Both the position numbers and the translations under genes were made by a program. From Tetracentron sinense (taxonomy: Eukaryota; Streptophyta; Magnoliopsida; Trochodendrales; Trochodendraceae): a stretch of 64,000 nt of DNA. The notes under the pieces are model-generated. The model searched no databases, had not been told where the DNA came from, and worked only from the letters and a program-made list of their open reading frames with translations. Shown here piece by piece: positions 1,558-57,420 of the stretch. How positions within the stretch are numbered: the first letter of the stretch is position 1; each line of letters starts with the position of its first letter. The stretch covers positions 40,738,875 to 40,802,874 of the forward strand of contig CM026561.1 of the NCBI GenBank assembly GCA_015143295.1, read 5' to 3'.

Positions 1558-2776
1558 CCTTATTTTTTAATTTTTAGACATTGGTTGCTAATACAATCAA
1601 AATATCACACTGAAAAATAAAATGTGATGATCCCGAAAAATGACATCTTTCACTTTTAACAGAAAGTTTCACATAATACCTAAGTTATTATCATAAGAAG
1701 TATCATATGCACATTTAGGCAACATCTCCAATTTCTTCAAATTTCATAAGAGAAGTGGATAAAAACCAGAAAACAGTAAGAAAAAAAAAGTATGATTCTT
1801 GAATAAGAAGAACATGGAGACATAAATGATCAAATTCAAATTTGCAAAAAAAAAGGATGATTGTGAAGGCCGCATAGGCGAAGTGAGTATGCACAAACAA
1901 ATTACAGAAAGCTAACACACGATCTGAAGCTGACTGGGACCTTGCTAGAGCAGCTCAATCTTGGAGCTAAAGAAGTATCCGAAAACCAGGGAACCATTAG
2001 AGCAGCTTGAGGATGCCTTAAGAAGGTCTTACAATCTGGTTTTCTGTATACATTAATTTTTAGGTATTGTGCAGTAAAATCTGAAATTTCTGGGGTTTAT
2101 TTGGTTTGATTCTGTTCAAAATAACTGAAATATCCAAATTTACAGAGGGACATGACATGACGAACACCTATCTATAGCAAATGACGAACATCAGTATATA
2201 CCAGGATCATGTTGTTGCATGAAGTAACAATTTGACATTTTTTTTTTTTGGTCCTGAAACTAATGCACAAGAAAAGCATGCTATTACACTACACGAAATT
2301 CATCATTCAGAAGTTAAAATCATTCAAAAGCATCAGAAAAAGATATAAAAGTAACAAAAAAGTAAAAGGAACATAAGATGAAATTGCAAGAGAAAATTTT
2401 CAGAGAAAACAGAACATCTACCTCAACCTTTAGGAATACTGCAAGAAGAATAAGATGAAGAAGTTGTTGGCGAGACGGAATGTAAAAATTAGGGCTTGTA
2501 TTGCTGTGCTTGCAAAAACGGAACGTAAGACTCTTTAGGAATTAGAAAGTAGTTGGAAATGGAGAAAATGAAAAGAGTACTAAATAGGGGAGATTGGTTA
2601 AAGTAGTTGCTCGTGTGAGAGAGAGAGAGACGAGACTGAGCAGAATATTAGAATACTCTTTGAAATTAGAAAGTCGTTAGAAATGGAGATAATGAATGGA
2701 AATTAAATGGCGCGAGGCGTCGTTAATGGTATGATGTAAGATTAGGCAGGTCTCACCTTGCTGATGAAGTAGAGGC
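1558..2776. other. intergenic, no gene recognised
   Basis: Non-coding, AT-rich sequence. A GAGAGAGAGAG tract lies at about 2619-2630. No open frame or repeat end was recognised before the foldback element at 2777. Confidence 0.4.
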
Positions 2777-3255
2777 CATGGTTTAAAATTTCGTTGAAAT
2801 TTCGTAAAATTTCGGTTTCGGACAATCCCACCGATATCGAAATTGTATTTATTTCGGAAATCAGATTTCGGTCGAAATTTCGAAGGATTTCGGAATTTCG
2901 GCCGAAATCTGATTTTTTTATTTTTTATATATATATTTTTTTTAATTAAAATTCTGAAATATTTCGAAATATTCCGAAATATCTCGAAATTTTTCGTGAA
3001 ATTTCAAAAATTTTATATATTAATTTTAAAAATAAAATAATAATATATATATAATTAATATTATATAAAAAAAATAAAAATTTCGGAATATTTCGAAATT
3101 TCGGACCCGAAATTTCGGAATATTTCGGCGAAATTTCGGATCAAATTTCAGAATAATATTTTATTATTAAATACGATTTCGGTGAGATTTCAGCCGAAAT
3201 TTCGAAAAATTTTGTTTCGAATGGGACATCCGAAATTTCGAAATTTTAAACCTTG
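2777..3255. mobile_element. hAT-like MITE rich in AAATTTCGG
   Basis: The left end is CATGGTTTAAAATTTCG and the right end, reversed, CAAGGTTTAAAATTTCG. The flanking octamers are GTAGAGGC and GTAGAGGG (7 of 8), a near-perfect hAT-type target duplication. The whole interior is composed of AAATTTCGG and its complement, so the single strand can fold on itself repeatedly. It is non-autonomous; any reading frame in it is low-complexity chance. Confidence 0.8.
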
Positions 3256-3325
3256 GTAGAGGGAGAGGTAGGGTCGAAGTCCAACCCGCTATTTGAATTT
3301 CAGAAACCTTCATTTTTTTGGGGGG

Positions 3326-4114
3326 ACAAAATACATTTACAACCCCTATGAGGTTTGGCGAAAATACACATAAATCTCAGTTTTCAGTCCTTGTTTTTCA
3401 AAATAATGGCACTTACACCCCTTCTGTATGTTGGCCTCAGTCAACCAACTAACCAGTTAGGCCCCCATAGGTGGCCACGTGTCCCTTTTTAAGCCCTTTA
3501 ATTGTGGTTAAGATTTATCCACTTCCTTGGTTTGTAGAAAAAAATTATTAACCTTGGTTAAAAAATTTTAACTCCTAGGATTAAATTTTTTAAAGTATTT
3601 TTTCTAAAACTAAAGATATTTTAGTGAACCCTAGGGTTGGGTGACCTAAACCACAGTTAAGGAGTGTAAAAAGGGACACGTGGCCACCTTAGGGGCCTAG
3701 CCGGTTTTTTTTACATGTGGCCACCTCAAGGGACATGTGTCCCCTTTTACACTCCTTAAATGTGGTTAAGGTCCCCCACCCCTCTAGGGTTCACTCAAAA
3801 TATCTTTAGTTTTAGAAAAAAATGTTTAAAAATATTTAACCCTAGGAGTTAGAAAATTTTAACCAAGGTTAATAATTTGTTATTATTTTTTTCTAAGAAC
3901 CAAGGAGGTGGGTGAATCTTAACCACAGTTAAAGGGTTTAAAAAGGGACACGTGGCCACCTAAGGGGCCTAACCGTTAGTTGATTGCGGTCAACACACAG
4001 AAGGGGTGTAAGTGTCAATATTTTGAAAAACAAGGGTACCTAATGTATTTTCTAAAAACTGAGGGGTCTATGTGTATTTTCACCAAACATCACGGGGTGT
4101 AAATGTATTTTCTC
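3326..4114. mobile_element. large palindromic foldback element
   Basis: Two arms of roughly 380 bp, meeting near 3712, are inverted copies of each other. The left arm carries in order AAAATACATTTAC, GGTGGCCACGTGTCCC and CTAGGGTT. The right arm carries the same blocks reversed. No coding sequence is present. Arms with the core CTTAACCACAGTTAA and GGACACGTGGCCACC recur at 4267-4565, 33384-33780 and 38700-38890, so this is a dispersed local family. No convincing target duplication was found. Confidence 0.75.
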
Positions 4115-14478: not shown

Positions 14479-17400
14479 TCATTGTCCAAACAGCTGAATA
14501 GTTGGTAATCGAAAATCCAACTGTCCCTACAGGTTACAAGTATGCATCATTTAAACTATATATTATATGCACAGACAAATTTCTTTGCAAATAATTTGCG
14601 GTCATAATAGTAGCATTTCATCCCATTTCCTCATGCACTGTTGAGTGCCGTAACAACCATCACCGATCGGTGATCTTAAGACCAGTTGTCCTTACACCAC
14701 CAAGCGGAATTTAAGAATTACAATCATTTTATTATATCAAAGGTTAGGGATACTTAAACGAATTTCTTTGCAAATACATTACAACATAAACATAGTATGT
14801 TATGCTCCCAAAAAGGAAAAAAAATAATTTTAGTATGCTACTGCCATACAAGGCCGTGCCTGCTCTGTCGAGTGCCATAATAAGCATTTGGTGCTACTGA
14901 GTTTAACTGACCCTACAACAAGTATAAAACTCCAATTAAAGAATTATCATTTACATTTATATTGTATTGTTATAAGATCCAATTATATTATGTTTATAAT
15001 TAAGTATGTCATACCATCATCCCTTGCACATTCTGTTGACTGCCATAAAGATCATCAATGGTTGGTGCGCTTGAGCTTAACTGTTCCTACAACAAGTATG
15101 AAACTCCAACATAAGAAATACCATTATTCATGCTATTACTTAATTAGATACACATAAATCAAATTTCATTTCCAACATATTACGTTCATAATTATGGCAT
15201 GACATCTCTTGCATGCTCTGTTGAGTAACACTAGAAGCATCAAAAGTTGGCATTCAAGTGGAAGTGTCCATGCAACAAATGCAACAACCTACTTTAAAAA
15301 GCATCTTTGTTTGAACTCTATTAATATTAGGTGCACATGTCCGCAATCAAAATACTGCGATAGGTCATAATAAGGATTATGATATGACATACCATTTGTT
15401 GTAAACTGTCCTGCACCGCAACACTCTTTACTTTCGACTCCGAATGTAACTACAATACATACAGAGGTCTACTTTACTGAATTATACATTTAAAATAATT
15501 TAAAACAACAACATTATTAGATTAGAGCATGTCAACCATCAAATCTTAACTAACCTTTCTCTTTTTGTTTGCATTATTTTTATAACTCGTCTTTTCTATT
15601 CCAGCATCAACTCTACTTGGAGCCCCTTTTGTCTTAATTAGTTGAGGATAGAGTGCCTTGAGTATAGATGTTGTACTGTTAGCTTGATTCTCCCCTACAA
15701 TGTCGTGAACACCATGCAACTTCCTGCGCCTTGCAGCACTCTTAATAGACTTATTCACTCTTGCAGACTTGCTAGGCTTTGCACCACTCTTAATAGAGTT
15801 ATTCACACTTACACATTGCCTTAACGCCTTTTCTATTGCACAAAATGCAACATCGTAACTATCTTGTGATAATGACCCTTCTTCACCCAATATAATGGCC
15901 CGCCGACATAGATCGTTGTAACGTTGCACCCTAGATTGCATCTCATCTGATCTTTGATTTATGGTATGCCTGCTCTTAGCATCCTTTGTCCAACGTTTCA
16001 ATATATAGTGAGATGGGATGCTGAACACCCCGGAAATTTGGAGAACAATGATCGCATGTCTGCAAAGAAAACCTTTGTATTCAAATGAACGGCATAAACA
16101 AGAAATATCTGATTTTTTTTCACTCCATGCCACTATGAATTCCCGATTCTTTTCAAAGTCTTTGACTCTGAATGTGATGGTTGTCTCATCTTCCATTTCT
16201 TTTTTAAGATGACATGCCGCTGCTCCCAAAACCTCAACTTGGAATTTCTTGAATATTTCATGTGTGTACACTGTTAACATTTGTTTTTCGAAAGGTGATG
16301 GAGACATTAACTCTGGTCTTTCGTGCCATCCATCAAAATCCGCTTTGGCTTCCTCTTCATACCTGTCTTGTAGAACTACTTTGTATTGTTCTACAAACTC
16401 TTTCAATGTAGTTTCTCTATGGACATAAATGTCCAAGAAAGAGTTTATACTTTCAGATCGTTGACTAGTAGACATCCCAGCAAAACACACGTCTCTAATA
16501 TAAGTTGGCACCCATTTTTCACGATCTTCATATAATGATTGAATCCATTCGTCATCTTTAAGTTCAAATCTATCAACCATTTTCCACCACCTCTTTTCAA
16601 ATTGTTCATCTGTCCATGAACTATAAATGCATTTATTGAATTTCGTCATAAAACTTTCATGCTGTTTAATTACATGATCGAGCTTTTGAGGGATCTTTTC
16701 CAATATATGCCACAAACAAAAACAATGGCGTGCTTTAGGAAAGACCTCTGCAACAGCTGCTTTCATGGCTTTGTCTTGATCTGTAAGTATCATTCTTGGA
16801 GCACGTCCCCCCATTGCTCTAAGCCATGTCCGCATTAACCAAACAAAGGTAGGTGTAGTCTCATCCGCAATCAATGCACATCCAAGCAACGTGGGCTGAA
16901 AGTGATGGTTCACTCCAATAAAGGAAGCAAATGGAATTTTATATTTGTATGTGATGTAGGTAGTATCGAAAGTAACTACATCGCCAAAATTAATATGATC
17001 ATTCCTCCCTTTTGCATCAATCCAAAACGCATTTCTCAGACATTGCTCTTCATTCAAATCCACTGAATAGACGAATTTAGGATTCTCTTCCTGCATATGC
17101 ATAAAATGTTCAAGCATAACTTGCGCATCTCCCTCTTCTAAAGCCAAACTCCGTCCTTTATCAAACTGATTTCGAATATAATTCTCTAGACAACCAAAAT
17201 TTTGATATCCACTAAAAATATTGGGCATTACAGTAGAGATCTTACTCGTTCGTACACGGACTTCATTCTTGTTAATGGGATTGATACTCTTGTGACTTCG
17301 GAAGAAATGTGCTTGAGCTGGCAAAAGTTCATGATTATGATCCTTTATGAAACTATATACAAACCATTTTCCATCATCCCTTCTCTTCACATGCATGCTT

Positions 17401-17771
17401 GCATTGCAACCTATCTTGGGAGAAGGTCGCGGTTTAATAACATCGGCGGACTCATGTTTTCTTCCATATCTAGCACATGTAAATTTCGCATCAATGAATT
17501 CCTTAGATCTTCTTGAACGACGGCTGCTTAATTTGGCGGTGCCAAACCCCTCAGACTTGGCATATTCTTTATAAAATGAATATGCTGCCTCATTTGATTC
17601 AAATACCATACCTTTACGAGGCTTTAGATTTGTGTCTCCCATGATAGCAAAAGAATCCACTGCGGTTGTGGGAGAACTCAAATCCATTTCATCTTCACCC
17701 TCCGCCATCACATTTGGTCCAACATCTTCAATACCATGTTCTCGTGGACATAGTTCAAGATCAACTCCCAT
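14479..17771 (-). CDS. FAR1/FHY3-related transcription factor
   Basis: The long exon 17771-15555 is open for 739 codons. It starts at MGVDLELCP, which parallels FHY3; upstream in-frame sequence (to 17834) follows a splice acceptor and is probably UTR. Domains in order: FAR1-type zinc finger (FTCARYGRKHE, GCNASMHVKRR, DHNHELL), MULE-derived transposase core (VVTFDTTYITYKYKIP, MILTDQDKAMKAAV, CLWHILEK, STSQRSESINSF) and SWIM finger (CLCRSFEYKGFLCRHA). The exon ends at KRK/GTTAGT. Short phase-0 exons then follow at 15449-15393, 15086-15015, 14912-14850 and 14526-14479, giving about 818 residues and ending GQLDFRLPTIQLFGQ. Family members are domesticated Mutator transposases acting as nuclear transcription factors in light signalling. 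This one is intact in the long exon. The splicing of the 3' exons is my prediction; if the intron is not removed, translation stops two codons after KRK. Confidence 0.85.
14620..15290 (-). repeat. ladder of homologous mini-exons at the 3' end of the FAR1-like gene
   Basis: At least four homologous copies with a spacing of about 175-215 bp each encode a variant of QLNSxAPTxDxYYGxQQ. Copies at 15086-15015 and 14912-14850 keep acceptor, frame and donor. The copy near 15272-15200 has lost its AG acceptor and GT donor and contains a stop. The copy near 14700-14630 has a shifted acceptor and no donor. The terminal exon 14526-14479 carries a related start, GQLDF. Intron sequence next to each copy is also similar, so the unit duplicated as exon plus intron. 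Confidence 0.7.
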
Positions 17772-19966
17772 GAAGAAATCTAAACTGTTTTTCAATGATT
17801 CTAGTTTACAAAAGTACCTAAAAGATGAAAACAAAAGAGTTATATATTGAAGTCAATCTAAGAAACCTACAGTTACATAAAGAAGTTCTAACTTTTAATT
17901 GAATTCTAAAATACACGTATACCAATGAAAAAAAATTATCAGCGGTACTCAAATCTAAATCAGACCCCATAACTATATCACACAAAATAATGTGTAAATT
18001 ATTTAATCACAACCTATTAACTAAACGAGGCTAGAGTTTTGTGGCAACTTATGTTGCATGGATTACAAATAATTAAGTCCTGTAGAAAGTGATACTAGAC
18101 TATTAGTAATGAAATGGTTAAGAACACAAATAAATTTTTTTAAAGGGAACAAAAGTGAAATGTACAAAATATAACAAGGTGGATAAAATAAGAAGATTGC
18201 AAAATATAAGCATGTTTACAATCAGACAGCTAAACACCAGATATGAAATGCCATTGAAATAACAAGGTTGATAAAAAGAGATTGCAAATTACAATATTAC
18301 ATGCATTCCTACACACATACATGTATTGACATCAGGGTTAAATGTGCAGGGGAAAAAAACCAGATAGGACATAAATCCAAGCTTTGAAGCTTATATCTCC
18401 ACACTTGGTGGAGGAATATCTGACCCAAGGTTCAAAATATCGAGTATCAATACGTTTTGTACAAAACATATCACGATATTACCATGTCTTAAAAAATAAA
18501 TCGAGAGTTTTAATCAAACAAGTCGTATTGGTACTGATATGCTATGATATGTATCGTGGCATATCAAAACCAAATTCTTATAAGCCAATTTAAGGTTTCT
18601 AAAAACCACTTTGAGTTGTCCTTTGTCTTTGACTGCCAAACCCCTTTGCTCTAATCCAAAACAAGCATTCCATTACTTACAATCGATTGAAAAGCCCCTT
18701 TCTTTGCATAAACTTGTCAAGTAAGAGACTTGAGCTCTATAAGTTAAGGTTAAGAAAAGGCAGCAGCCCAATACCAGAAGGAGAGTCAACGATTGACTTA
18801 CCGCAGAGAATGCAGAAAATAATTACAGACCATAGAAAGGGAAACAACTTCAATTTTAGCGGTGATGGAATCAAAAACCCCTTTTCACTATTCATTGATG
18901 TATGTTTTATTCTTTTTATTTTTCATTCTTAAGATGTTAAATCCCTTGAAATTTACAAAAAAAAATCATTGAAATTAGTTAAAACATGCTTGTCGATCAT
19001 AGACTAAAATCATTGATATTAGTTAAATATATGTGTACAAAGAGGATCTATCAGATCCCCATGCTAAGCCTAATTTTAGGGAAAATATATTTTATTATAA
19101 AAATTAATATCTCAAAAATGAGATTATTGATCTTAACCTAAATATTATATGAAATTGTTGATTCAACCCAAATTCTAAGTATTTTATTTTTAAAGACATT
19201 AGTCTACGAGTTATCTATTAGACCTATAAACCAATCTTCATTTATATTAATTAATCATATTCTTAATTATTGTATAATATATAATTATTCAGAAATTTTA
19301 AACAATCTTTTTTTCACTTGGGCAGCTTTGATGACTAAACAATAAGAGCTTATTTCGGTTTTAGAGCTTTTGATAACTTATCGCACTTCTAAATATTTTA
19401 GAAAGGGGTAAAACATCTAAACAAATAAGTGGCAGGGAGGTTCCTTATTTTCATAAGTCAAAAACTTCAAAGGATCGACATCAAAAATTTTGCGGGTTTA
19501 TAGACGATTTTGACCTTACAAAATTATCGTAATGCCCATTGTGCCCCTTAATATAAAACCAAAAAAACAGAGAAGGGATGCCTTAAACCCATCTGTTCTT
19601 TGTCTCTCGGCAATTTCCATCTTTCTACTCTCGTAGGATTGCCGAAGAAGGGAGATCACCATCGTCAGAGCTCTGGACCACCAGGTCAATTTCCGTTCTT
19701 CTGCTGCTAGGTTACGATTTTCATGATGAATAGCCCTCTCGTTGTGTTTATTTTTTTAGAGTTGCGAAGCTCTCAACTTGTTCTGACAAACCCTAACATT
19801 GCTATTACATTCCCTGATTGATCTTTTCTAACAGATGCAACCATCTCTTTCACAGTTTGGAGATAACTTGGACAATCATCACATCACACGGTTTTAAAAT
19901 TTTTGATCGGTGTTGATTGCACAACAATAATCTGACGAGTGATTCTGCAGCTTTGTTACTATATAT
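17772..19966. other. upstream region of the FAR1-like gene, no further gene recognised
   Basis: CATCTTTTAG at about 17829-17820 on the reverse strand is a plausible acceptor, so a 5' UTR exon may lie further upstream. At 18426 a CAAGGTTCAAAATATCG end opens a possible partial foldback element running to about 18572, rich in TATCG motifs; no right end or target duplication was found. At 19560-19690 (+) a UTR-like pyrimidine-rich stretch ends at CCACCAG/GTCAAT. The rest is AT-rich. Confidence 0.4.
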
Positions 19967-39213: not shown

Positions 39214-42143
39214 TGTGAACACCCCATTTTTACACCCCTAAAATTCTTTTTTCTAATTTAATTTAATTAAATATTTTTATATATTTCTTTAATTTATTTT
39301 TCACATTATTTGTTTGGTCTCAAGAGAGAGAGAGATTGAGAGAGTTGGAGAGAGGTCCAAGTCCAAGTTCAAGACCAAGACCAAACCCCATCCAATTCCT
39401 AAAAACCAAACCCCAAATTCAATCCAGGGTCTTCTAAAGCCCAAAAGCCCATACCCATGTCTATAAGATCAAGAGAGGGGTATTCGAAACCCAAAAATCT
39501 CACTCGGTGAGAAGCAACCGCAGAGAGCCCCCTCTCTCTCCCTATTCTCTGGTCCAGCTCTGGAGAATCCCAGTTCCGGCAGATCACCTCTCTCCCATTT
39601 CTCTAGCTTCATTTCCGGGGAATTCGATTGCCATTTTTGGTCACCTCCAATCTAAACTTCGGCCATTCCATTGCCGGCATCGTAGAGCTCCGGCAAGTTG
39701 CGACAGTAGCAGTCTTCTTCTCCAAATCAGATTTGTTTATTTTCACCATAGAACCTACGCAGTCGCAGCTGGCCACCACCGCCGCACCTCATCTCTCGTT
39801 GGAAGTGAATCTGTGATCCAGACCAAGTTCGCACCGGATTCCCTGGCCTTCATCACTTCCGGCAAGATTTATTGTATTTGCGTAATCCCTATCATCTCCG
39901 ATCATCTTCATCGTTCCAATCAATGGATTCTCCTTCAGATCTGATCCGTAAATCCAACAGTAGTCCAATCTCTCCATCACAGGATCTTCTCCGACCAAAT
40001 CGCGTCCTCACCATTGATGGCGATAACTCCGGCCAATAATTCTTGGTTTCAGATCTAGAAATCTTCCAGATCTGGAAAACTTAAACTCCGGCCAGCAGCT
40101 CATCCATTCAGATGTGGTACTTTCAAACCAAGAAAATCCACCTACCTCACCTCTGACTTCTATCATTTTCGGTCGCAGTAGCAGCGACAGATGCTGACCC
40201 ATCTTCTCCGGCGAGATCGCGCCACTGCAGCAGCCCCTATCGTTAGATCAGCAGAGATCTCAGCTCGGTTCGAGCTCCGGCCATCATCTCTAGCCATCCA
40301 AAGTGGCAAAAACCTTTGCATGCTTGAACCGCCATAACAGCTCCGTCGACGGTCACGCACAGCACATCTCCACCAGATTTTTTCGCCGGCGAAAACTCTG
40401 TCTGGTGATTTCTCGTGCAGATCTCTTTCTCTCTCGGGTTCTCTATTAACCACCAGCTACGATCGGATCAGCAATTTCGTCCTCTCCGGCGAAATTCTTC
40501 ATTGTCTCCTCCAACTGGAGCAACAGTCCACGGTCTCTACTGTGTCACCCTTCACGCCCAACCTGGGTCAGGTATGACTTCTTCCCCTTCTTTAATTCTA
40601 CGATTTTCCTTTATTTCTTTTGTTATGATTTTCCTTTATTTCTTTTGTTATGATATATTGTTTGGGATCAGACAATGGTCGGATTCCCTTTTTCTCTTGT
40701 ATTTTAAGACCTGGAAGCTAAGGTTAAGAGATCAGGCGAGACCAACTATTTTGAAATCTAAAAGTAGAGAGGTTTTCTGTTCAAAATTTGAAATCAGGTT
40801 TTAAATCAGTAAGAGCAATTTGGATGTGGCCGTTCATTGCAAAACCATAGGGCTAGCAAGTTTTTCATGTTGTTTTGACTTCTAAAAACTCAAAAAGAAT
40901 TTTAAAAACCTGTAGCAGATTTGTATTTCGTGGTTTGAGCTAAATTTTATTGGAGGCCAAGGTTAGCCTTTGAGCCAAATTAGGCAATGACAGTGGCATT
41001 CCTTTTGTTTGTTTTTGTTTCATTCCATTTTCCTGGCCTCAGGATTAAGGTTTCACATTTGTTTAAAATTTAACCCTTGGATTGAACTTGGCCTCAGATT
41101 ATACTATTGGACCAGAGTTAATTGACTATGTTCGGCATAGATCAATTAACCTTGGCACAATAGTTTTATAGTTGGTTGGTCCCAACCTGATCTTCATTTA
41201 ACTTTTGATTGTATCTTTGTAAGAAATTAAGCCTTTTAATTAGGCCTTGGATCATTTCTCAGAATATGCTTTTGAGCCAAAGCCAGTTGACGATTAGTGG
41301 TCAATGGGCCTTGGCCCATTAGCTTCATTTTGGCCCCGGCTTGGTTTATTTTTTAACAATGGTTAAGTATTCGCTTTGTAATTTAACCCATGTGTGTGCA
41401 ATCATAAGATCAGGTGTAGTTTATTTTTCCTTTTGCCTACCTTGGGCACTTAGGTAAGTTCTTGACTAGTTAAACTTGTCAAAATTAAAAAATACAAAAA
41501 AATCAAAATACAAAATAACAAAAACATTCAAAAAATCTAAAATGAAAAAGAAATCTACCCTAATAAATGAACGCCCCCTAGAGCTCCCCCACGAGCACCT
41601 AGCCACGCAACCGTCTCTCGGAATGAGATTCATAAATCTCAATTCCACATCCCCCCAACTCAAACACGAGTTGGAAGTGACCACACTCCGAAACGAGTAT
41701 AAAAACAGTCACGGACCCCGAACTACTATGAGGGTCTGATTCCGACTAACCGGATAAGTAGGCAGCCCGAGCCAGGGTTCGACCCCAACCTAGGATAAAG
41801 ATCTTATACCCCTTTATGATTGTTTATGTTTGATTAGCAAAATTAATAATTGCTTTAGGAAATTTTAAGTGATTTAAATGTTTGGCTTAGACCTAGTGAG
41901 TAGGTTACCATCATTGGATGGAGGTCCTGGGGTGCCTAACCCCTTCCCCAGGACCTAAAGGGATCTCTTACCTAGACTACTCTGGACCGTAGACCCCCTT
42001 ATTTTGGATTATCTCGGGATCCTACTTCCCCTAAGTAGGTGGCGACTCTTAGAATAAATTTAGCGTTATTCCTCTACTCTCGGACCTTATCTCGACACTT
42101 AGAGTTGAGAGGGGAGGAAGGGCGGTAAATTTATGTGTTTACA
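39214..42143. mobile_element. 2.93-kb solo LTR
   Basis: The unit begins TGTGAACACC and ends TGTGTTTACA, giving TG...CA termini with an inverted terminal match. Perfect 5-bp duplications GAGAG lie at 39209-39213 and 42144-42148. No gag or pol frame is present inside. The GGTGGCGACTCTTAG-like block near 42040 resembles the region near the LTR end of plant Ty3 elements (established pattern, lineage not determined). A single terminal repeat with its own duplication is the product expected from LTR-LTR recombination. Short open frames within it are not genes. Confidence 0.75.
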
Positions 42144-47640: not shown

Positions 47641-47790
47641 TTAAGGGTTTTAAAGTTGAGGAAAATACGGATTTGGGCCCCGTATTATGAAAAAACCCGT
47701 ATATGGGCTCCGGGTTTGAAAACTTATTCTTGTAGGCTCCCACGCGTGGGAGCCAAGTGCACGTGCTGCCCCTTCGCATTTTCTCCCCAA
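47641..47790 (+). repeat. left terminal inverted repeat of the MULE
   Basis: Contains GAGGAAAATACGGATTTGGG, CCCGTATTATGAAAAAACCC, ATATGGGCTCC and CTTGTAGGCT in order. The right end carries the same blocks on the opposite strand. Similarity fades inward but persists loosely to the GAAGAA leader. Confidence 0.85.
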
Positions 47791-48079
47791 AATACCCCTG
47801 GCTTGCTGTCAAAGCTTTCTTCCCAAGCTGAAGCTCGGTTACGAACCCTCGGTTATCCTGAAGCCCTCGGTTATCCTGTGATCCGAAATCCTTGAAGGCG
47901 CAAATTTGAAACCTGCAAATCCTTCCCCAAAGTAAAACCCTTGGGTACCCAGTACATCCGGAACTCTACGGGCTTCATAATAGCGTATTGAAGAAGAAGA
48001 AGAAGAAGCCAAAGAAGAAGAAGAACAACAACCCCGAAGAAGAAGAACAACCCTGTAAGTTTTAGCGGTTTTTAATAAA

Positions 48080-48820
48080 ATTTCAAACCTAAAAATGGGC
48101 CCCACAGTTAACGACTTCATTTTCGATGCTTTCAAGTAACCATTTTCGATGGTTATGATTAACCATTTTCGGTATTATTATTGATTTTTGCTCATTTTTC
48201 GTGATTTTCAATGGTGAAGTTAAAGTGCATTTTCGACCCTTTTGAGTTTATTTTCGGCAAAAATACATTGCAATTTCGATGGTTCTTACGACCATTTTCA
48301 GTGTTTTTTTACTCATTTTCGGTATTTTCAGTTATCAATGCTCATTTTCGGTATATTTATGTTTTTGCTTATTTTCGGTATTATTCAATTATGACATTGT
48401 TTTTTCGGTATTATTGTTGATGTTGAGCCCAATTTCGGGATTTTCAATGGTTATGTTATAATGCATTTTCGATGGTTTTGTGCTTAATTTCGGCAAAAAT
48501 ACAGCAATTTCGATATTTCGGTATTTTTGTGTCCTAGTAGAGTAAATTTTTGGTATTTTGCTTTCATGACTGCCATTTTCGATGTTTTTGTGTCCTGGCA
48601 GTACCTATTTTCGGTGTTTTTCTGCCTGGCAGTGCATATTTTCGGTATTTTTCTGTGATGACAGTGTCTATTTTCTGTATTTTTCTGTTATCCCAGTGCC
48701 TATTTTCGGTATTTTTCTGTTATCCCAGTGCTTATTTTCGGTATTTTTTGCTATGACTAGTTATTGTCAGTACTTTCGATGGTTATTGTTATGATAGTGT
48801 TTATTGTTTTTCAATTTTGC
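48080..48820 (+). repeat. CATTTTCGGT repeat block 1, leader intron of the protease gene
   Basis: Irregularly spaced copies of CATTTTCGGTATTTTT and variants (CATTTTCGATGGTT) fill the intron between the noncoding leader exon and the ATG exon. They sit on the sense strand of the gene. Spacing is roughly 20-45 bases. Confidence 0.85.
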
Positions 48821-50459
48821 AGCGACAAGATGCCTCGTACAAAGAGAAAAGCCGGTAGGGAAAAGAAAAAGAGAAAAGAGAAAGAAGATAAATATTTTCC
48901 TTCGATTAAATGCTCCCAAACGATATGGTTTGACGAGATAAAACCATTATTAGAGGCCAATCCAGAGAGAAAAAGAATTTGGATGGAGAGCTGCTTTGCC
49001 CACCTTTACAACATACCTAAAATACCACTGTGTGGCCAAGCAATCCACCATTTTCTACAGAGGCGTAAATGAGGGTTACGCTTCGAAGTATGCGGGAAGA
49101 GTGTAGAGTTCACAGTGTTGGACTTTACTCTGATCATGGGCCTTAATGCCCAAGTGTCTAAGGTTCCGGTCCTTAAACATGAAGCGCCACCAACCTCTCT
49201 CAAGTATCGAAAGTTTCAAAAGTTGGCGGTGATTAAAAAGGCAAGGCTTCTTGAGGAGTTGAAGGGATGTGATGATCATATGGATGCGGTGAAGCTATCA
49301 CTGGTCCTCTTTATTGAGTTGTTGCTCGTAAGCACCGGCACGCATGTGGGTGTTAACACAGGCCATTTGTGCCTAGTGGATGATTGGGAGGCCTTCAACA
49401 AATACCCATGGGGGACTTTGGGTTTTGAGTTGTGCAAAGTTGGCCTAGAAACTGCTCTTTATACGAAGAAGCAGTACAATATAAACGGATGTGCTCTTGC
49501 CTTCCAGGTAAACATATGACTACCTAAATTTTGTAAATTTTCCGTGTTAGCTAATTTGTGTTTACTTCTACTTGAACTAATAGTAAAATTTATGACTGAT
49601 GTCAGATTTGGGCTTATGAGTGCATCCCAGCACTTGGGAGGCTGTGTTCTCGTAATGCACCCCTAGGTGCGATGACATTCCCACGGGTTCTGCGGTGGGC
49701 GAATACATCCTATCTCAGCTACAAGTCACTTGCAAATGCCATATTCAATTTAAGTAAAGTATGTAATTGGACTTGTTGTTTTACAATATTCAACTTGCAA
49801 TATCCTTTGTTATTTTACAGATCATTTGTTATTTTATAACATATCCTTTGTTGTTTTACAGATCAAGCTGAGCAATATAAAGCCTACTCCTGCAGAGAAG
49901 GAGCAGCAGGTTGTGAAGGATGTGTTAGTACGATTGAGTGCTGAGGGTGATGATGATGAGGAGGGGGAGGAGGAGGATGATGAGGAGGGGGAGGGTGATA
50001 GTGATGGTGGTGATGGTGATGGGGGTGATGGTGGTGATAATGACGGTGGTGGTAGCGATGGGGGTGATGGTGATGATGATGTAAGTCCAACCCCATCTCC
50101 GGCGAAGAAGAGAAGGTTCGAGCAGAGGTCAAAAACGGTACAAATATTGATTGTGATTATTTTTTATGATTTTCAACATTTTTACATATAAATTGTCTAA
50201 TTTTTGGGATTTTTACTTACTAGTTGTTTGATGTTCAATATTTTCAGGTTCATGATATCAATTCCTCCGTTGAGCGGGCAATGGAGAGAGTTTTAGACCG
50301 TTATTTTGACCGAGTTGTTGATCGAGTTGTTGACCAAGTTGTCGACCGAGTTGTTGAGCGAGTATCCCCGCAAATAAAAAGCTTGTTTGAGCAATGGGCA
50401 GCGCAACAAAAAAAAGATGAAAAAACTTCTGGTGATGAAAAATCTTTCAGTGATAAGAG

Positions 50460-50665
50460 GTCTCCCATATTGAGTCCCGAAGCAGCGCCGACACAGGGAC
50501 ATTCTTTCGTTCATGAGAAGATGGATCCTATCTTCACTCCCGAAGCAGCGCCGACACAGGGACATTCTTTCGTTGATGAGAAGATGGATCCCATCTTCAC
50601 TTCCGAAGCTGCGCCGACACAGGGACATTCTTTCATTGATGAGAAGATGGATCCCAACATTGAGT
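50460..50665 (+). repeat. 63-bp coding tandem repeat
   Basis: Three to four copies of a 21-residue unit with PEAAPTQGHSF and EKMDP lie in exon 5 of the Ulp1 gene. Just upstream (about 50297-50365) a 12-bp unit encodes DRVVDRVVDQVVDRVV. Both are in frame, so the protein has a repeat-expanded linker. Confidence 0.85.
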
Positions 50666-51049
50666 TGACTCCCGTAGATTCGAAGGGGGGTGCAGATTCG
50701 AAGGGGGTTGAAGACCTTCTAGAGGTGTGTGTTTACATTCCTAAGACGTGTAATGAGAGTCTGTGAAATGGGTTTTCATCAAGCCGGAACTTATATTTGG
50801 CAATATATGCAGGTGTCAAAGAGACCGGTAGTGAAGTCTCAATATCTGCGATCCCCTTTCATTCAAATGAAAGGAAGGAAAATGACAATTGGAGCTGCTA
50901 ACCCCAAAAATCCTTTATCAAAAGAGGAGTCGAAGCAACTGCGCGATTTCATAAAGTCGGGAGCAACTTCAATTTTGATTGACAAGGTGATGGTGACAGC
51001 GGATATTGTGGGAGGGATTTCTAGCTCAACTACGTGGATTGATTCATTG

Positions 51050-51842
51050 GTAAACCCAGTACTTTTATTGATGAATCCAGTAGCCATTTTCGGTATTTCA
51101 GTTTCATTATCGGTATTTCAGTTTCATTTTCTGTATTTCAGTGGTTTTAATGATGAATCCAGTAGCCATTTTCGGTATTTCAGTGGTTTTAATGATGAAT
51201 CCAGTAGCCATTTTCGATATTTCTGTATAATTTTCGGTATTTCAATGGTTTTAATGATGAATCCAGTAGCCATTTTCGGTATTTCTGTATAATTTTCGGT
51301 ATTTCAGTGGTTTTAATGATGAATCCAGTAGCCATTTTCGGTATTTCTGTATAATTTTCGGTATTTCAGTGGTTTTAATGATGAATCCAGTAGCCATTTT
51401 CGATATTTCTGTATAAGTTTCGGTATTTCAGTGGTTTTAATGATGAATCCAGTAGTCATTTTCGGTATTTCAGTGTAATTTTTGGTATTTCTGTGGTTTA
51501 ATTGATGAATCCAGTAGCCATTTTCGGTACTTCAGTGTAATTTTTGGTTTTTCTGTGGTTTAATTGATGAATCCAGTAGCCATTTTCGGTATTTCAGAGC
51601 CATTTTCGGTATTTCAGAGCCATTTTCGGTATTTGTCTGTGTAATTTTCGGTACTTCAGTGGTTTTAATGATGAATCCAGTACCCATTTTCGCCATTACA
51701 GCACCCATTTTCGGTATTTAATTCTCATTTGTACATCCATTTTCAGTAGTTGAGGACCATTTTCGGTAGTACTATCACTATCCATTATCGTTATTTTCGG
51801 TATTCTTTTGTGAGATTATCTAACATTGAATAAATATGACAG
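51050..51842 (+). repeat. CATTTTCGGT repeat block 2, internal intron
   Basis: This intron is nearly all repeats. A higher-order unit of about 60 bp contains GATGAATCCAGTAGCCATTT, then TCGGTATTTC, and recurs many times from 51070 to 51700. Units differ by few bases, so this block expanded more recently than block 1. Confidence 0.9.
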
Positions 51843-52934
51843 CAAATTGACATGTATACGGAGTTATTGGCTCAAAGAAATGAGCAATACTCCTTGAAAT
51901 ACAATCAAGTCTGCGCTTTTGGCAAAACTTGGTTCACGGTAACTCATAATACTTTTGTTATGTTTTAGTTTATCCAATATATACATTTATCCAATGTATA
52001 TCCGCAATTTCTAAGTAACAATAATGTTCGTTATGTTTCAGTATTCGTTATTCAAGGAGTGTCACTTTTTGGACACCTACCATTCAACTTTGAATTCCAA
52101 GAAGCTGACTGAGGACATGACTAGTCAGGTGGGGCCAGATATGAAGGCCGCTATCATGGGGGTTCGAGGAGGGACCCCCATGTGGGAATGTGAAAGGATA
52201 TACTTCCCTGTGAACCCCGCTAGTCACTGGCTATTGGTTGTGCTTGAACCCCCCACAAGGCGTATCCTCCTCTTCGACTCATTTTTCCCACACCCGGCAT
52301 TACAACATGGAGATCATATCTCAGCTATCACAGTGAGGATGCCTGCACTGTTTCACATGTGTGGTGACAACTCAGCCTTCATAGGTCAAAAATGGGAGGT
52401 CATAGAAGTCAAAAATATACCAAAACAGAAGAATACGTAAGTCTTTCTAAAACATTTAATCTTATATTTACCAATACACTAACATGACTCATCCTAAGCA
52501 ACTGTAACTGTTTGTTTTGCATATTCAGTCGGGACTGTGGAGTATTCGTTATGAAATATATTGACTTCTTATGCGCTGACTTACCCATTACGTTCACTCA
52601 GGTATTTGTACATCCATTGGTAAATATCATCAATCATTTGTAGCATACTGACTTTTTCTAACTATTTTTGTAGGACGATATATCTTCAATGCGGAAGCGA
52701 ATAGCTTTCGATGTTATGACGGGGTCAGTGAAGGCGTGATGGGCTGTGATAACGTCCCAATGTTGGATGCTGAGGTCCCATGATGAAGAGGAGGGAGAAG
52801 ATAGGCCGGGGTGCAGTTTGTTGATAGACTATTATGGATGGATTGTGATGTACTATTATGGATTGTTGTGATGATGTTGTAATGTTGTAATATTGACTTC
52901 TTATGGACTATTTGTGTACAGTCCTGTAATATTG

Positions 52935-53560
52935 TGTATTTAGAGATGATTTTCGTCATTTATTACAATATCCAGTGCGGATTTTTGGTTTTTTCGTCAT
53001 ATTACAGATTATTTTCAGTTTTACAGGGCTCCATTTCGGCATTTTACAGTGTCCCAGTAGCCATTTTCGGCATAATAGGGCTCAATTTCGGCATTTTTGC
53101 CATTTCCAGTAGCCATTTTCGGCTTAACATGGCTGATTTTCGGGATTTTACACTGTGTAGTAACCATTTTCGGCATAACAGGATCAATTTTCGGTATTAC
53201 AGTCCCATTTTCGGTATTCTGCAGTACTGTATTTTTGGCATTTTTGCCATTTCCAGTACCCATTTTCGCCATTTTTCTGTCAAATTCAGCATTTTTGCCA
53301 TTTTCAGTACCCATTTTCGCCATTTTTAGCCAATTTCGATATTTTTCTGTCAATTTCGGCATTTTTCTGTTGAATTCTAGCTGTCATTTTTGCCATTTCC
53401 AGTAGCCATTTTCGGCATTTTTCGGTTTTTTCCTGTCAATTTCGGCATTTTTCTGTTGCAATCCAGTAGCCATTTTCGCCATTTTATTGCCATTTTCGGT
53501 ATTTTCCTGTCACTTTCGGCATTTTATTCCCATTTTCTGTCTTTTTCCATCTTTTTTGAG
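52935..53560 (+). repeat. CATTTTCGGC repeat block 3, between the convergent genes
   Basis: Copies of CCATTTTCGGCATTTTT and CAGTAGCCATTTTCGG occupy the gap between the stop of the Ulp1 gene and the stop of the transposase. They lie in the sense orientation of the Ulp1 gene. The repeat here prefers GCATTTT over GTATTTT. Confidence 0.85.
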
Positions 53561-53655
53561 ATTCTATAATATTGGATAAATAATAAAGAACCTTGAAACC
53601 AACCATTCATTAAGCATTACATGTTTTTCATTACATTCAACATTAGACACTACAC

Positions 53656-56248
53656 TCAACCACCATGGGGAACAAGATTATTACATGTTTGCCTATTGTG
53701 CCCAGTTTGTTTACATCTTCCACATCTTACAGTGGACCTTTCCTCACCCTGTGAGAGAATTCTATTCTTCTTCGGCCTTCCTGAACGTCTTCTTCCCACC
53801 GGTGGTTTAATCCTTTCCATCTCTACCATGATTTCAGGTGGGAGGTCCCATGATTTTTTGTCAAGCAGTGGATATATTGACTCTTGGTAGGTGGCTTGGT
53901 ACGTTAGTGATGTGTAGAATGGCGAACAATAGTTGTATGGATCTACCCGATACTTTCTACATCCAGCCAAGGCATGTGCACAAGGCAACCCTATTTTATA
54001 GAATTTCCCACAAGTGCAATTCCCATCCAGAAGCTTCACAGTATCTCGATTGTTTTTCCCAACCACATAATACTGATACATAGCAATTCCATGAGAATCT
54101 AAATAACGTGCCTGTGATTGTCCCTTTTGTATTTGCTCTTCGGCCCATGTTGTTAGCCTGCCATTCATTTGCATAGCACTGATTTTTCGGTTGTAGAACA
54201 TATTTTGTACCTTCAGTCGCACATTCTCCAAAAGCATAGTGACTGGATATTCTCTTGCTTCTTTCAGCAAACTATTCAAACTCTCGGTTATGTTCGTAGT
54301 CAGCACATTATACCTCTTCGCACTATAAAAGGCTCAGGCCCATTTCTCTTTTGGTATTGCATCCAATCATTGCACAACGAGAGGGTTTGCAGCTGCGAGT
54401 TCTGCCATTATCTCATGAAACTCGCTTTCTCTACATGTCTTCACGGCTTTCCAGAAATACGGAAACAATTGCTTATCCTTGAATGTTGCATACATATTTT
54501 GGCTAATGTGGAATGCGCAGTAGCCATGAATTGCATGTGGGAATACAACAGGGACTTGGCTTATCAAACTAACATGTCGATCTGTTACAATCACTAGATC
54601 ATCTATGTGTCCAAGTGCTCTTGATAATTGAGTTAAGAAAAAATTGTAAGTAACATTATTCTCCGACTCCGCTATCCCAAGGGCAACTGGAAATATGTGA
54701 TTGTCTCCGTCTAGAGCTGTTGCGGCAATTAGTATTCCTTTGTACTTTCCCTTTAAATGTGTCCCATCAATGGCTACCACTTTCCGTAAAGTCGTCTGAA
54801 AACTTCGAATACACGGTCCAAGAGCCATAAAACATCTTTCAAATGCCCCATTTTCAGGGTCAGCCACTATTGCTGTTACTGTGCCCGGATTAGTCCTTTT
54901 AAGTTCATGAAAATAGGTAGGGAGTTCAGCATAAGAGTGGTCGTATGAACCTCTAACTGTTTCAATGGCAATCTCCTTAGCTTTCCAAGCTTTCTTGTAA
55001 CTCATTCTAACCCCCATATTCTTCCCACACATCATGAATAATCTCTTTGGGCTTATACGAGACATTTGCCTCAATACGTCCCACAACCATGTCACTCACA
55101 ACTAAACTGGTTGCTTGTCGATGATCGGTACCACCTAAGGGATATCCACAAGAGTGATGTGAATTATAAGTCTTTATTTTGAAAACACCAACCTCATTCA
55201 CTTTCGATGCACGCAACCTTCAGGTGCAATTATCTATAAGACATCTAACTGTGTACTTTTGTTGATTTGAATCCATAACCTTGAATTGAAAATTGTTTCG
55301 CATCGCATATCTAGACAGTACATTTTGTAGACGTCTTTTGTCCTTAAATAATTTCCCAAGCGATATTTCACCAGCTTCCACTCCAGTTTCAAACTCTGAT
55401 GCTTCCCAATTTACATAGTCATCTACACCATCATTTAGTTGCATCACATTTGCCAGTGATTGTACTGGAGCTTGTGGTGATGATGGAGCTTGTGCTGACG
55501 GTTCTGGATGAGCTTGTGGTGATGCTTCTGGATGAGCTTCTGTATCTACTTGTCTTACTCGACGAAAAGCAGACGCTGAGGAACTAGGAATATCAGCATG
55601 CGGGGTATGAGAGTGTATAGTCCTTGTGTCCCACTCTGCTGTTGCCTCCCTATGTAAAAAGTCTTCAAGCTTATCGCAGACACCGTATGTTGCTACATCT
55701 TCATCTTGATTAAAATCACTATAAAAATCATGTTCATCTTCATTAGTTGAGCTTGAGTCTATACTTTTTAAACATTCATCACCGTTATCATTTTCAGCCT
55801 CCTGCATATGAGTCCCCTTATAGAAAGGAATGACAGTCTCCTGAATATGAGGATCAACAACCTCCTGAACACGCTGATATTCACAACTCGCATCATTCAA
55901 ACCAAACTGTGGTTGTGGTACAGATTTCCTCACCTTCGATATATATAATGGCGGCAAGTATTTATTTTCTACTTTCCTGACATGTGAAAGAAATGTCCGC
56001 AACTCTTCATCGTCTGTAATATCACTGGGAGGGATTGGCGCTGGTGTAGGAATCAAACACCTCACTATAATCTCATACTCTTCCAGTCGAGTGTTAGTCA
56101 ATTGATAAACTTTATCCAATAGTTTGTCATATGTCATTTTTGAAGATAATTGCAACAACTTTGATTTTCCACCACTGTACACGTACCCTCGAACACGGTC
56201 GTCAATGTTCCACTCACCGTCATAACAACAAACTACTGATATCGGCAT
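53656..56248 (-). pseudogene. MULE (MuDR-type) transposase with four lesions
   Basis: After a noncoding GAA-rich exon (donor GTAAGT at 57046) and a repeat-filled intron, the acceptor GATATTACAG precedes ATAATGCCG, so the start is the ATG at 56248. It is one coding exon of 863 codons if one extra base is ignored. Domains: N-terminal PB1-like MULE region (WNIDDRVRGYVYSGGK), DNA-binding region (SYKKAWKAKEIA), transposase core with VVAIDGTHLKGKYKG, VIVTDRHVSL, HGYCAFHISQNM and TESLNSLLKEAR, SWIM finger (CTCGKFYKIGLPCAHAL), and terminal zinc knuckle CGRCKQTGHNRQTC. Lesions: TGA at 55220-55222 in place of Trp, a one-base insertion in the G-run near 55012, and TGA codons near 54361 (Trp) and 54331 (Arg). 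Three of the four are single transitions, as expected from cytosine deamination. Confidence 0.9.
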
Positions 56249-56279
56249 TATCTGTAATATCGGGAAAACACTCAATCCG

Positions 56280-57040
56280 TTAAAGTAATCTGAAAAATTT
56301 CAAAAATGAGCGCTGTAACCATTGAAAATGCACTGTAATAACCAAAACCGCCGAAGATCACAAAATCATCGAAATAGCACTGTCATATCAAAATTGCAAT
56401 AACAGAAAACCCCCGAAAATGGGCATTGTATCCATCGAAAAGCAGTGTCAGAACAGAAAACCACCGAAAATGAGCATCAAAGCATCGAAACAGAACTGTA
56501 ATAACAGAAAACCACCGAAAAGGAGCATAAAATCATCGAAAATACACTGTAATATCGAAAATGCAATAACAGAAAACCACCGAAAATGACCACAAAACCG
56601 CCGAAATAGCACTGTAATAACAGAAAACCACCGAAAATGTGCATAAAATCATCGAAAATGCACTGTTATACTGGAAAACCACTGAAAATGGTCAAAAAAA
56701 CATCGAAAAAGCACTGTTATACTGGAAAACCACCGAAAATGGGCATAAAATCATCGAAAAGCCCTGTAAAAGAGAAAATGCAATAACATCAAACCCCCGA
56801 AAATGACCACAAAACCGCCGAAAATAAGCTCAAAACCACCGAAAATGAGAACTGTAACATTGAAAATGCACTGTAATCACAGATAACCACCGAAAATGAG
56901 CAAAAAAAATCAAACTTTATCACTACAACCATCGAAAATGAACTCTAATAACAGAAAATGAGGAAAATGAGCACATAACCCTAGCAAATACCGAATATGA
57001 TCACTGTAACCATCGCAAAATGGATCAAAAACATATAAAC
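56280..57040 (-). repeat. CATTTTCGGT repeat block 4, leader intron of the transposase
   Basis: Read on the reverse strand, which is the sense strand of the transposase, this intron contains CATTTTCGGTGGTTTTC, CATTTTCGATGATTTT and similar units. The motif core is the same as in blocks 1-3, but orientation is reversed to follow the gene. Confidence 0.85.
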
Positions 57041-57261
57041 ACTTACCCTATGTTCTTGTTCTTCTACTTCTTCTTCTTCTTCTTCACAAGGGTTTAGCTC
57101 AGTTGCAATGAAGGAGAAAGCTTCAACGAAGGGGAAAACTTAAGTCTAGCTCGTTGCAACGAAGGGGAAAGCTTGGGTTTCGGATGAACGCTTCGTTGAA
57201 GGGGAAAGCTTGAGCTCAGTCGCACGGTGTTTAAGGGTTCTCTAACAGGGATGGGGGGCAT

Positions 57262-57420
57262 TTTGGAGAAATTTTTTTTAAAGGAAACCACGTGCTCCAC
57301 TAAAATCACTGTAGAAGCCTACAGAAATAAATATTTCAAACTGGAGCCCATATATGGGTTTTTTCATAATACGGGGCCCAAATCCGTATTTTCCTCTTTA
57401 AAGTTTTCAAATCTATTAAC
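57262..57420 (-). repeat. right terminal inverted repeat of the MULE
   Basis: Reverse-strand reading gives GAGGAAAATACGGATTTGGG, CCCGTATTATGAAAAAACCC, ATATGGGCTCC and CTGTAGGCT, matching the left end. It lies upstream of the transposase leader and probably carries its promoter. Confidence 0.85.

Follow-up and report, generated by a model that had tools for sequence, protein, structure and literature searches.

Sequence-specific anti-silencing arrays have previously been described in the VANDAL elements of Arabidopsis, in which VANC genes are linked with lost TIRs (PMC5735166, PMC10398659). According to the sections of the source papers available to us, VANC21, a DUF1985 protein, binds arrays of the word YAGTATTAY in VANDAL21 (Hosaka et al. 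2017, PMC5735166). These arrays lie in introns, intergenic and terminal non-coding regions of the element in the same orientation, and DNA methylation is lost at the bound regions. DUF1985 is a conserved domain of VANC proteins, which also have variable repeated regions, and VANC6 uses words other than that of VANC21 (PMC5735166). The same non-coding VANDAL regions are re-silenced by RdDM (PMC10398659). In the available part of a review, VANC genes that carry Ulp1 are termed KIUs, and KIU-carrying VANDALs are described as recognising motifs in each other's non-coding regions (PMC13317346). Ulp1-bearing MuDR-like MULEs also exist outside Arabidopsis, in grapevine and melon (PMC2528002).

Here we report a TIR-bearing MULE at positions 47658-57396 of a window of Tetracentron sinense DNA, the window being the whole stretch of 64,000 nucleotides analysed. 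Like VANDAL21 (Hiun) with VANC21, the element is a MULE that combines a DUF1985 protein with same-orientation arrays of a short word in non-coding DNA, and in both cases a related family uses other words (PMC5735166). Because the VANDAL21 arrays are bound by the element's own DUF1985 protein, such a layout is already on record, contrary to the original prediction, which knew of no described MULE that had it. The VANDAL21 word lacks a CpG, whereas the word of the window element, TTTCGGT, contains one; VANDAL21 encodes VANA, VANB and VANC, whereas two genes were recognised in the window element (PMC5735166), which, unlike VANDAL21, includes an Ulp1 domain. VANDAL TIRs are degenerated (PMC10398659), whereas the window element has an 81-bp TIR at both ends. 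KAONASHI (KI) MULEs, with KIU-type VANCs, resemble the window element in that the Ulp1 gene is reversed relative to mudrA, but they are non-TIR elements and also differ in motif and host (PMC13317346, PMC2528002). The grapevine and melon MULEs have Ulp1 in common with the window element; the available text of that paper mentions neither arrays nor DUF1985, and 'tandem repeat' occurs 0 times in a text search of it (PMC2528002). A description of the window MULE family was not found among the literature matches listed, which does not amount to proof.

Structure of the element and its arrays

A MULE transposase, TIRs and a perfect 9-bp TSD on both sides identify the element as a MULE, in agreement with the original prediction. 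The 23-bp sequences at its two termini are identical, and an end-to-end alignment shows that the two ends are alike over 81 bp. The element is filled by two convergent genes (Table 1). DUF1985 and an Ulp1/C48 domain are found in one gene on the + strand, and the gene on the - strand has the DBD_Tnp_Mut, MULE and SWIM domains of a MuDR transposase (both by Pfam). The + gene protein has tandem peptide repeats, consistent with the variable repeated regions that VANCs contain (PMC5735166). The window copy is damaged by a premature stop ahead of the DUF1985 exon and by breaks in the transposase frame at about 55000-55100 and 54340. A single-sequence structure model of DUF1985 (pLDDT 42.5) was too poor to show a fold. 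Elsewhere in the window there is a 768-aa open frame at 15546-17852 (-), which from its look by eye we take to be of the FAR1/FHY3 type, and a further DUF1985 match lies at C11:40819955, ~17 kb past the right window end.

Table 1. Features of the Tetracentron sinense element, in window coordinates.
Feature	Positions	Strand	Remarks
Left TSD TTTAAAGTT	47649..47657	.	
Left TIR, 81 bp, begins GAGGAAAATACGG	47658..47738	+	
Block 1, motif array (+ only); leader intron of DUF1985/Ulp1 gene	48055..48822	+	Splice sites by sequence only
N-terminal coding exon, followed by TGA at 49070-49072 in window copy	48830..49069	+	52% identical to family B
DUF1985 (PF09331) exon	49073..49510	+	E 2.2e-13, 50.8 bits, cut-off 35.1
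Further exons and intervening introns; acidic stretch, tandem peptide repeats	49603..50724	+	
63-bp unit x3.1, tandem peptide repeats of + gene	50463-50656	+	
Exon preceding block 2, without Pfam match	50813..51049	+	
Block 2, motif array (+ only); intron with 62/124-bp repeat units	51050..51842	+	
Exons and short introns, Ulp1/C48 peptidase domain (PF02902)	51843..52739	+	E 2.7e-10, 40.9 bits, cut-off 20.7
Block 3, motif array (+ only); intergenic, between convergent genes	52935..53560	+	
MuDR-type transposase (DBD_Tnp_Mut, MULE, SWIM), frame broken in window copy	53656..56251	-	
Block 4, motif array (- only); leader intron of transposase gene	56252..57046	-	Splice sites by sequence only
Right TIR, 81 bp	57316..57396	-	
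Right TSD TTTAAAGTT	57397..57405	.	

The four non-coding blocks share one core, as predicted: TTTTCG[G/A] occurs 15, 18, 9 and 17 times in blocks 1 to 4 (59 in all) and once in the remaining gene-coding span, in the transposase region on the + strand. For CATTTTCGGT, shuffles predict 0.18 copies in the window and 23 are found, 22 of them inside the element and one at 40164. The TTTTCG[G/A] motif keeps one orientation within each array: blocks 1 to 3 carry it on + only, and block 4, the right leader intron, on - only. The motif therefore lies on the sense strand in both leader introns and is reversed between them, and the leaders are alike in that both exons are GAA-rich and both introns start with GTAAGT, at 48055 (+) and 57046 (-); on these points the original prediction was right. 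Its wider claim that the motif follows gene orientation holds in three of the four blocks. By sequence, block 3 falls between the stop codons of the two convergent genes, so that its motifs read in the sense direction of one gene and in the antisense direction of the other, and inverted symmetry of the two ends fits the orientations equally well. Dense arrays of a short word, confined to non-coding parts and with one orientation per array, are what is expected of a VANC system.

A MITE-like inverted repeat with ends GGTTTAAAATTTCG, unrelated to the element, lies at 2781-3260 of the window. TTTCG occurs 21 times on the + strand in 2500-3499, and CATTTTCGGT is absent from the repeat at 2781-3260, indicating that the bare 5-mer is not specific.

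Motif spacing and CpG content

Helical periodicity of the motifs reportedly matters in VANC systems, and it is found here when the blocks are pooled, a regularity that the original prediction does not mention. Successive TTTCG cores are spaced at about 20, 31, 42, 52 and 62 bp, with a best period of 10.5 bp (R 0.68; 78 adjacent spacings, blocks pooled, scan 6-20 bp). When each distinct spacing was counted once per block, which reduces copying by tandem duplication, 45 values gave R 0.54 at a best period of 10.6. For the 78-spacing and the 45-spacing set alike, 0 of 2000 jittered sets were as strong. Pairwise distances up to 130 bp gave strong phasing at 10.4 in blocks 2 (R 0.84) and 3 (R 0.62). 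Phasing was moderate in block 4 (R 0.50 at 10.4, slightly stronger at 7.3 bp with 0.57). In block 1 it was weak, R being 0.21 at 10.4 and peaking with 0.30 at 10.9. Spacing by whole helical turns thus holds for the motifs pooled over blocks and is less clear for blocks 1 and 4 alone. Ten other copies of the same family (family A) have best periods of 10.5-10.8 for spacings of 15-110 bp, these copies not being independent of one another. The phasing points to double-stranded DNA.

The arrays have CpG observed/expected ratios of 1.01-1.27, compared with 0.59-0.66 in the exons measured and 0.58 in the window left of the element, but as evidence this is circular because 84 of the 97 array CpGs sit within TTCG or CGAA. 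Slower CpG loss in the arrays, considered as a sign of hypomethylation, was not seen: between copies, 18 of 771 CpGs were lost in arrays (2.33%) and 27 of 1203 in coding and other intron sequence (2.24%; Fisher p 0.88). Other C/G transitions were commoner in arrays (87/6306, 1.38%, against 87/16257, 0.54%), where the alignment is uncertain.

Family A copies and sister families

Across the 1.16 Gb of genome surveyed, the 15-mer CATTTTCGGTATTTC occurs 1234 times against 5 for its reversed control; specificity is lower for the bare 10-mer (5773 against 1869). The mature sequence of miR403, a miRNA not known outside eudicots, is present once in this genome (control 0), which makes a eudicot host likely. 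Sorted by hand, 99 of 100 CATTTTCGGTATTTC sites listed fall into 16 clusters of 2 to 9 and one is single. The motif is thus specific to the family and no general feature of introns, which bears out the predicted tie between motif and element. We read 10 of the 16 clusters as family-A copies. All four blocks are present in nine of them, and the same nine have the DUF1985 exon at 93-97% identity; the tenth (L015) has blocks 2-4 and is missing the left block and the DUF1985 exon.

Both TIR ends and a matching TSD were found in seven of these ten other copies, with one mismatch in one of the seven, and pairwise identity among the eight TIR-bounded copies, window included, is 96.5-99.7%. The 40 genome matches to the TIR that were scored, of 393 candidates, are 99-100% identical. 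Pairing was based on 95 of 100 listed ends (those on C1-C12, with 5 later rows left out; the genome total is 201), and 33 of 39 pairs span 9.2-9.9 kb. Given the identity of the copies and the lengths of these pairs, family A was probably active recently. An open frame of 385 aa surrounds DUF1985 in the copy at C1:839624, and a 1974-bp TIR pair at C3:28271529-28273502 is probably a non-autonomous copy.

Of the 558 DUF1985 candidates in the genome, 150 were scored, and all of these exceeded the cut-off. We read 3.3 kb at each of the 30 top-scoring matches, with motif classes picked after the k-mers had been seen. Sister families carry arrays of other words, ATCTCGAATTCGAGAT and TTTCGATATCGAAA. 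Arrays of ATTCGAGA are present at 12 of the 30 loci (family B) and arrays of TTTCGATA at seven (family C), and one locus (L034) has a variant word. At another, which has a family-C DUF1985 (L047), the leader region has given way to an unrelated sequence containing CGATCGATC repeats; the family-C word is present ~3.3 kb upstream of the DUF1985 match. The other nine loci, from other clades, have fewer than four copies of every scored word within 3.3 kb. That related families use different words, which go with the protein, is again as expected of a VANC system; at those nine loci an array was not seen within 3.3 kb.

On a DUF1985 tree of 40 rows (the window, nine family-A copies and 30 others), the word requires two changes, the minimum for three states, over 10 rows of family A, 12 of B and 7 of C, a 29-row count that leaves out the nine below-threshold rows, L047 and L034. 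Restoring the nine rows and L034, with L047 the single omission (39 of 40 rows), raises the number of changes to four. In DUF1985, family A has a median identity of 46% to B and 47% to C, and B and C share 70%. Genome-wide, 650 sites of the family-B palindrome were counted, against 1 in the control. Of 50 sites listed and sorted by hand, 42 have a scored DUF1985 match within 7 kb; six of the other eight form a cluster without a scored match and two are single. The family-C palindrome gave 39 rows, some of them two strands of one site, against 0 in the control; 19 of the 39 rows lie within 10 kb of a scored match (by hand), and two lie upstream of L047. For both palindromes, distances were taken to the 150 scored of 558 candidates.

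A 10-kb family-B copy (L059) aligns in order with eight of ten + gene pieces and three of four transposase pieces of the window element. Its 67 half-sites form four groups, in the left leader, the exon gap after the acidic exon, the between-gene gap and the right leader, with none in aligned exons. Families A and B thus have three of four array places in common, the internal one being different. Over at least 860 bp, the two ends of L059 match as inverted copies (824 identical columns among 928 aligned), which span the promoter, the GAA-rich leader exon and the leader intron with its arrays; the alignment reaches the right edge of the sequence read, and the very end and TSD lie beyond. The suggestion that one promoter-leader cassette stands at both ends is therefore correct for family B. 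It does not hold for the window copy, in which the alignment found no likeness of the ends beyond the 81-bp TIR except a GAA run. Family A keeps the outer TIR, leaving oppositely oriented arrays at the two ends.

Interpretation of the arrays

We put at roughly three in four the probability that a VANC/KIU-type anti-silencing system, sequence-specific and with a new motif, has the four blocks as its cis target arrays. This reading draws on the protein domains, the arrays and their confinement to non-coding DNA, the phasing, the conservation in the copies read and the use of one word in each of three DUF1985 clades. The window element has each sequence-level feature of a VANC system that was looked for, TIR loss excepted. 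By homology, an element-encoded protein probably strips host silencing marks; binding by the DUF1985-Ulp1 protein, demethylation and any Ulp1 role are proposed on the same basis. The protein, from the window copy or an intact sister, would bind the TTTTCGGTATTT-type word, and sites on the same helix face (10.5-bp phasing) would let many protein molecules bind together. Binding would remove DNA methylation, or keep it off, over the promoter-leaders, the middle intron and the intergenic gap, and the demethylated regions would allow both genes to be expressed and the element to move. Binding of the arrays by the transposase, intron-mediated expression and neutral minisatellites are all less well supported than anti-silencing arrays.

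That the arrays are functionless minisatellites spread within a selfish element is unlikely. In its favour, slippage makes tandem repeats grow, the units of period 62 in block 2 are 93% alike, and block 1 is weakly phased; but one core is common to four blocks that have different fillers, the exons are almost free of the motif (1 against 59), and the 10.5-bp period is kept in pooled spacings, also with unique spacings only. Family B likewise has another word and fillers unrelated to those of family A in largely the same places. A further locus (L060, C1:6237400-6240900) bears on both sides of the question. It is a coding-free, expanded array of ~2.2 kb with the family-A word in alternating orientation, adjoining right-leader-like sequence, and no TIR was seen in this interval by eye. 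Nevertheless L060, whose listed matches to block 4 and the adjoining flank are 67-76% identical, is still in phase, with R 0.75 at 10.2 on one strand and 0.80 at 10.4 on the other.

Still less likely are binding sites for the MuDR transposase, the first of the roles offered by the original prediction. CACTA and hAT elements have subterminal repeats that are transposase binding sites, and both the inverted symmetry of the two leader arrays and the position of the family-B arrays within long inverted ends would suit such a role. However, the outermost 397 and 348 bp of the window element lack the motif, and blocks 2 and 3 are found 3-6 kb into its interior. Moreover, families A and B retain 66-77% identity in the aligned parts of the transposase while the word has been replaced, and the faster-changing partner is the DUF1985 protein (49% identical between L059 and the window element). 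Intron elements for expression enhancement or exon definition, also offered by the original prediction, are very improbable, since the sense-strand motifs in three intronic blocks are countered by block 3 past both stop codons, by phasing that points to double-stranded DNA, and by the palindromes of families B and C, which lack a sense strand.

Beyond the anti-silencing reading, the words of the array-bearing families seen (TTTCGGT, CTCGAATTCGAG and TTTCGATATCGAAA) all centre on CpG, in contrast to those of VANC21 and VANC6 (PMC5735166). We raise as a tentative possibility that the DUF1985 protein could sense whether its own CpG-centred site is methylated, making the arrays a cooperative, helix-phased on/off switch. 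Host methylation would then prevent binding (or attract it) at exactly the cytosine that needs protection, and in family B the whole switch, comprising promoter, leader and arrays, would lie inside the long inverted ends.

In conclusion, a TIR-bearing MULE family of another plant has a VANDAL-like design, which suggests that TIR loss is not required for a VANC-type design. Its departures from the described pattern are intact TIRs, family-B arrays that fall within long inverted ends, and words with a central CpG in all three families (A, B and C). The three protein/word pairs in one genome provide material for finding which residues read which bases, and the CpG-centred words make a methylation-sensing switch directly testable.
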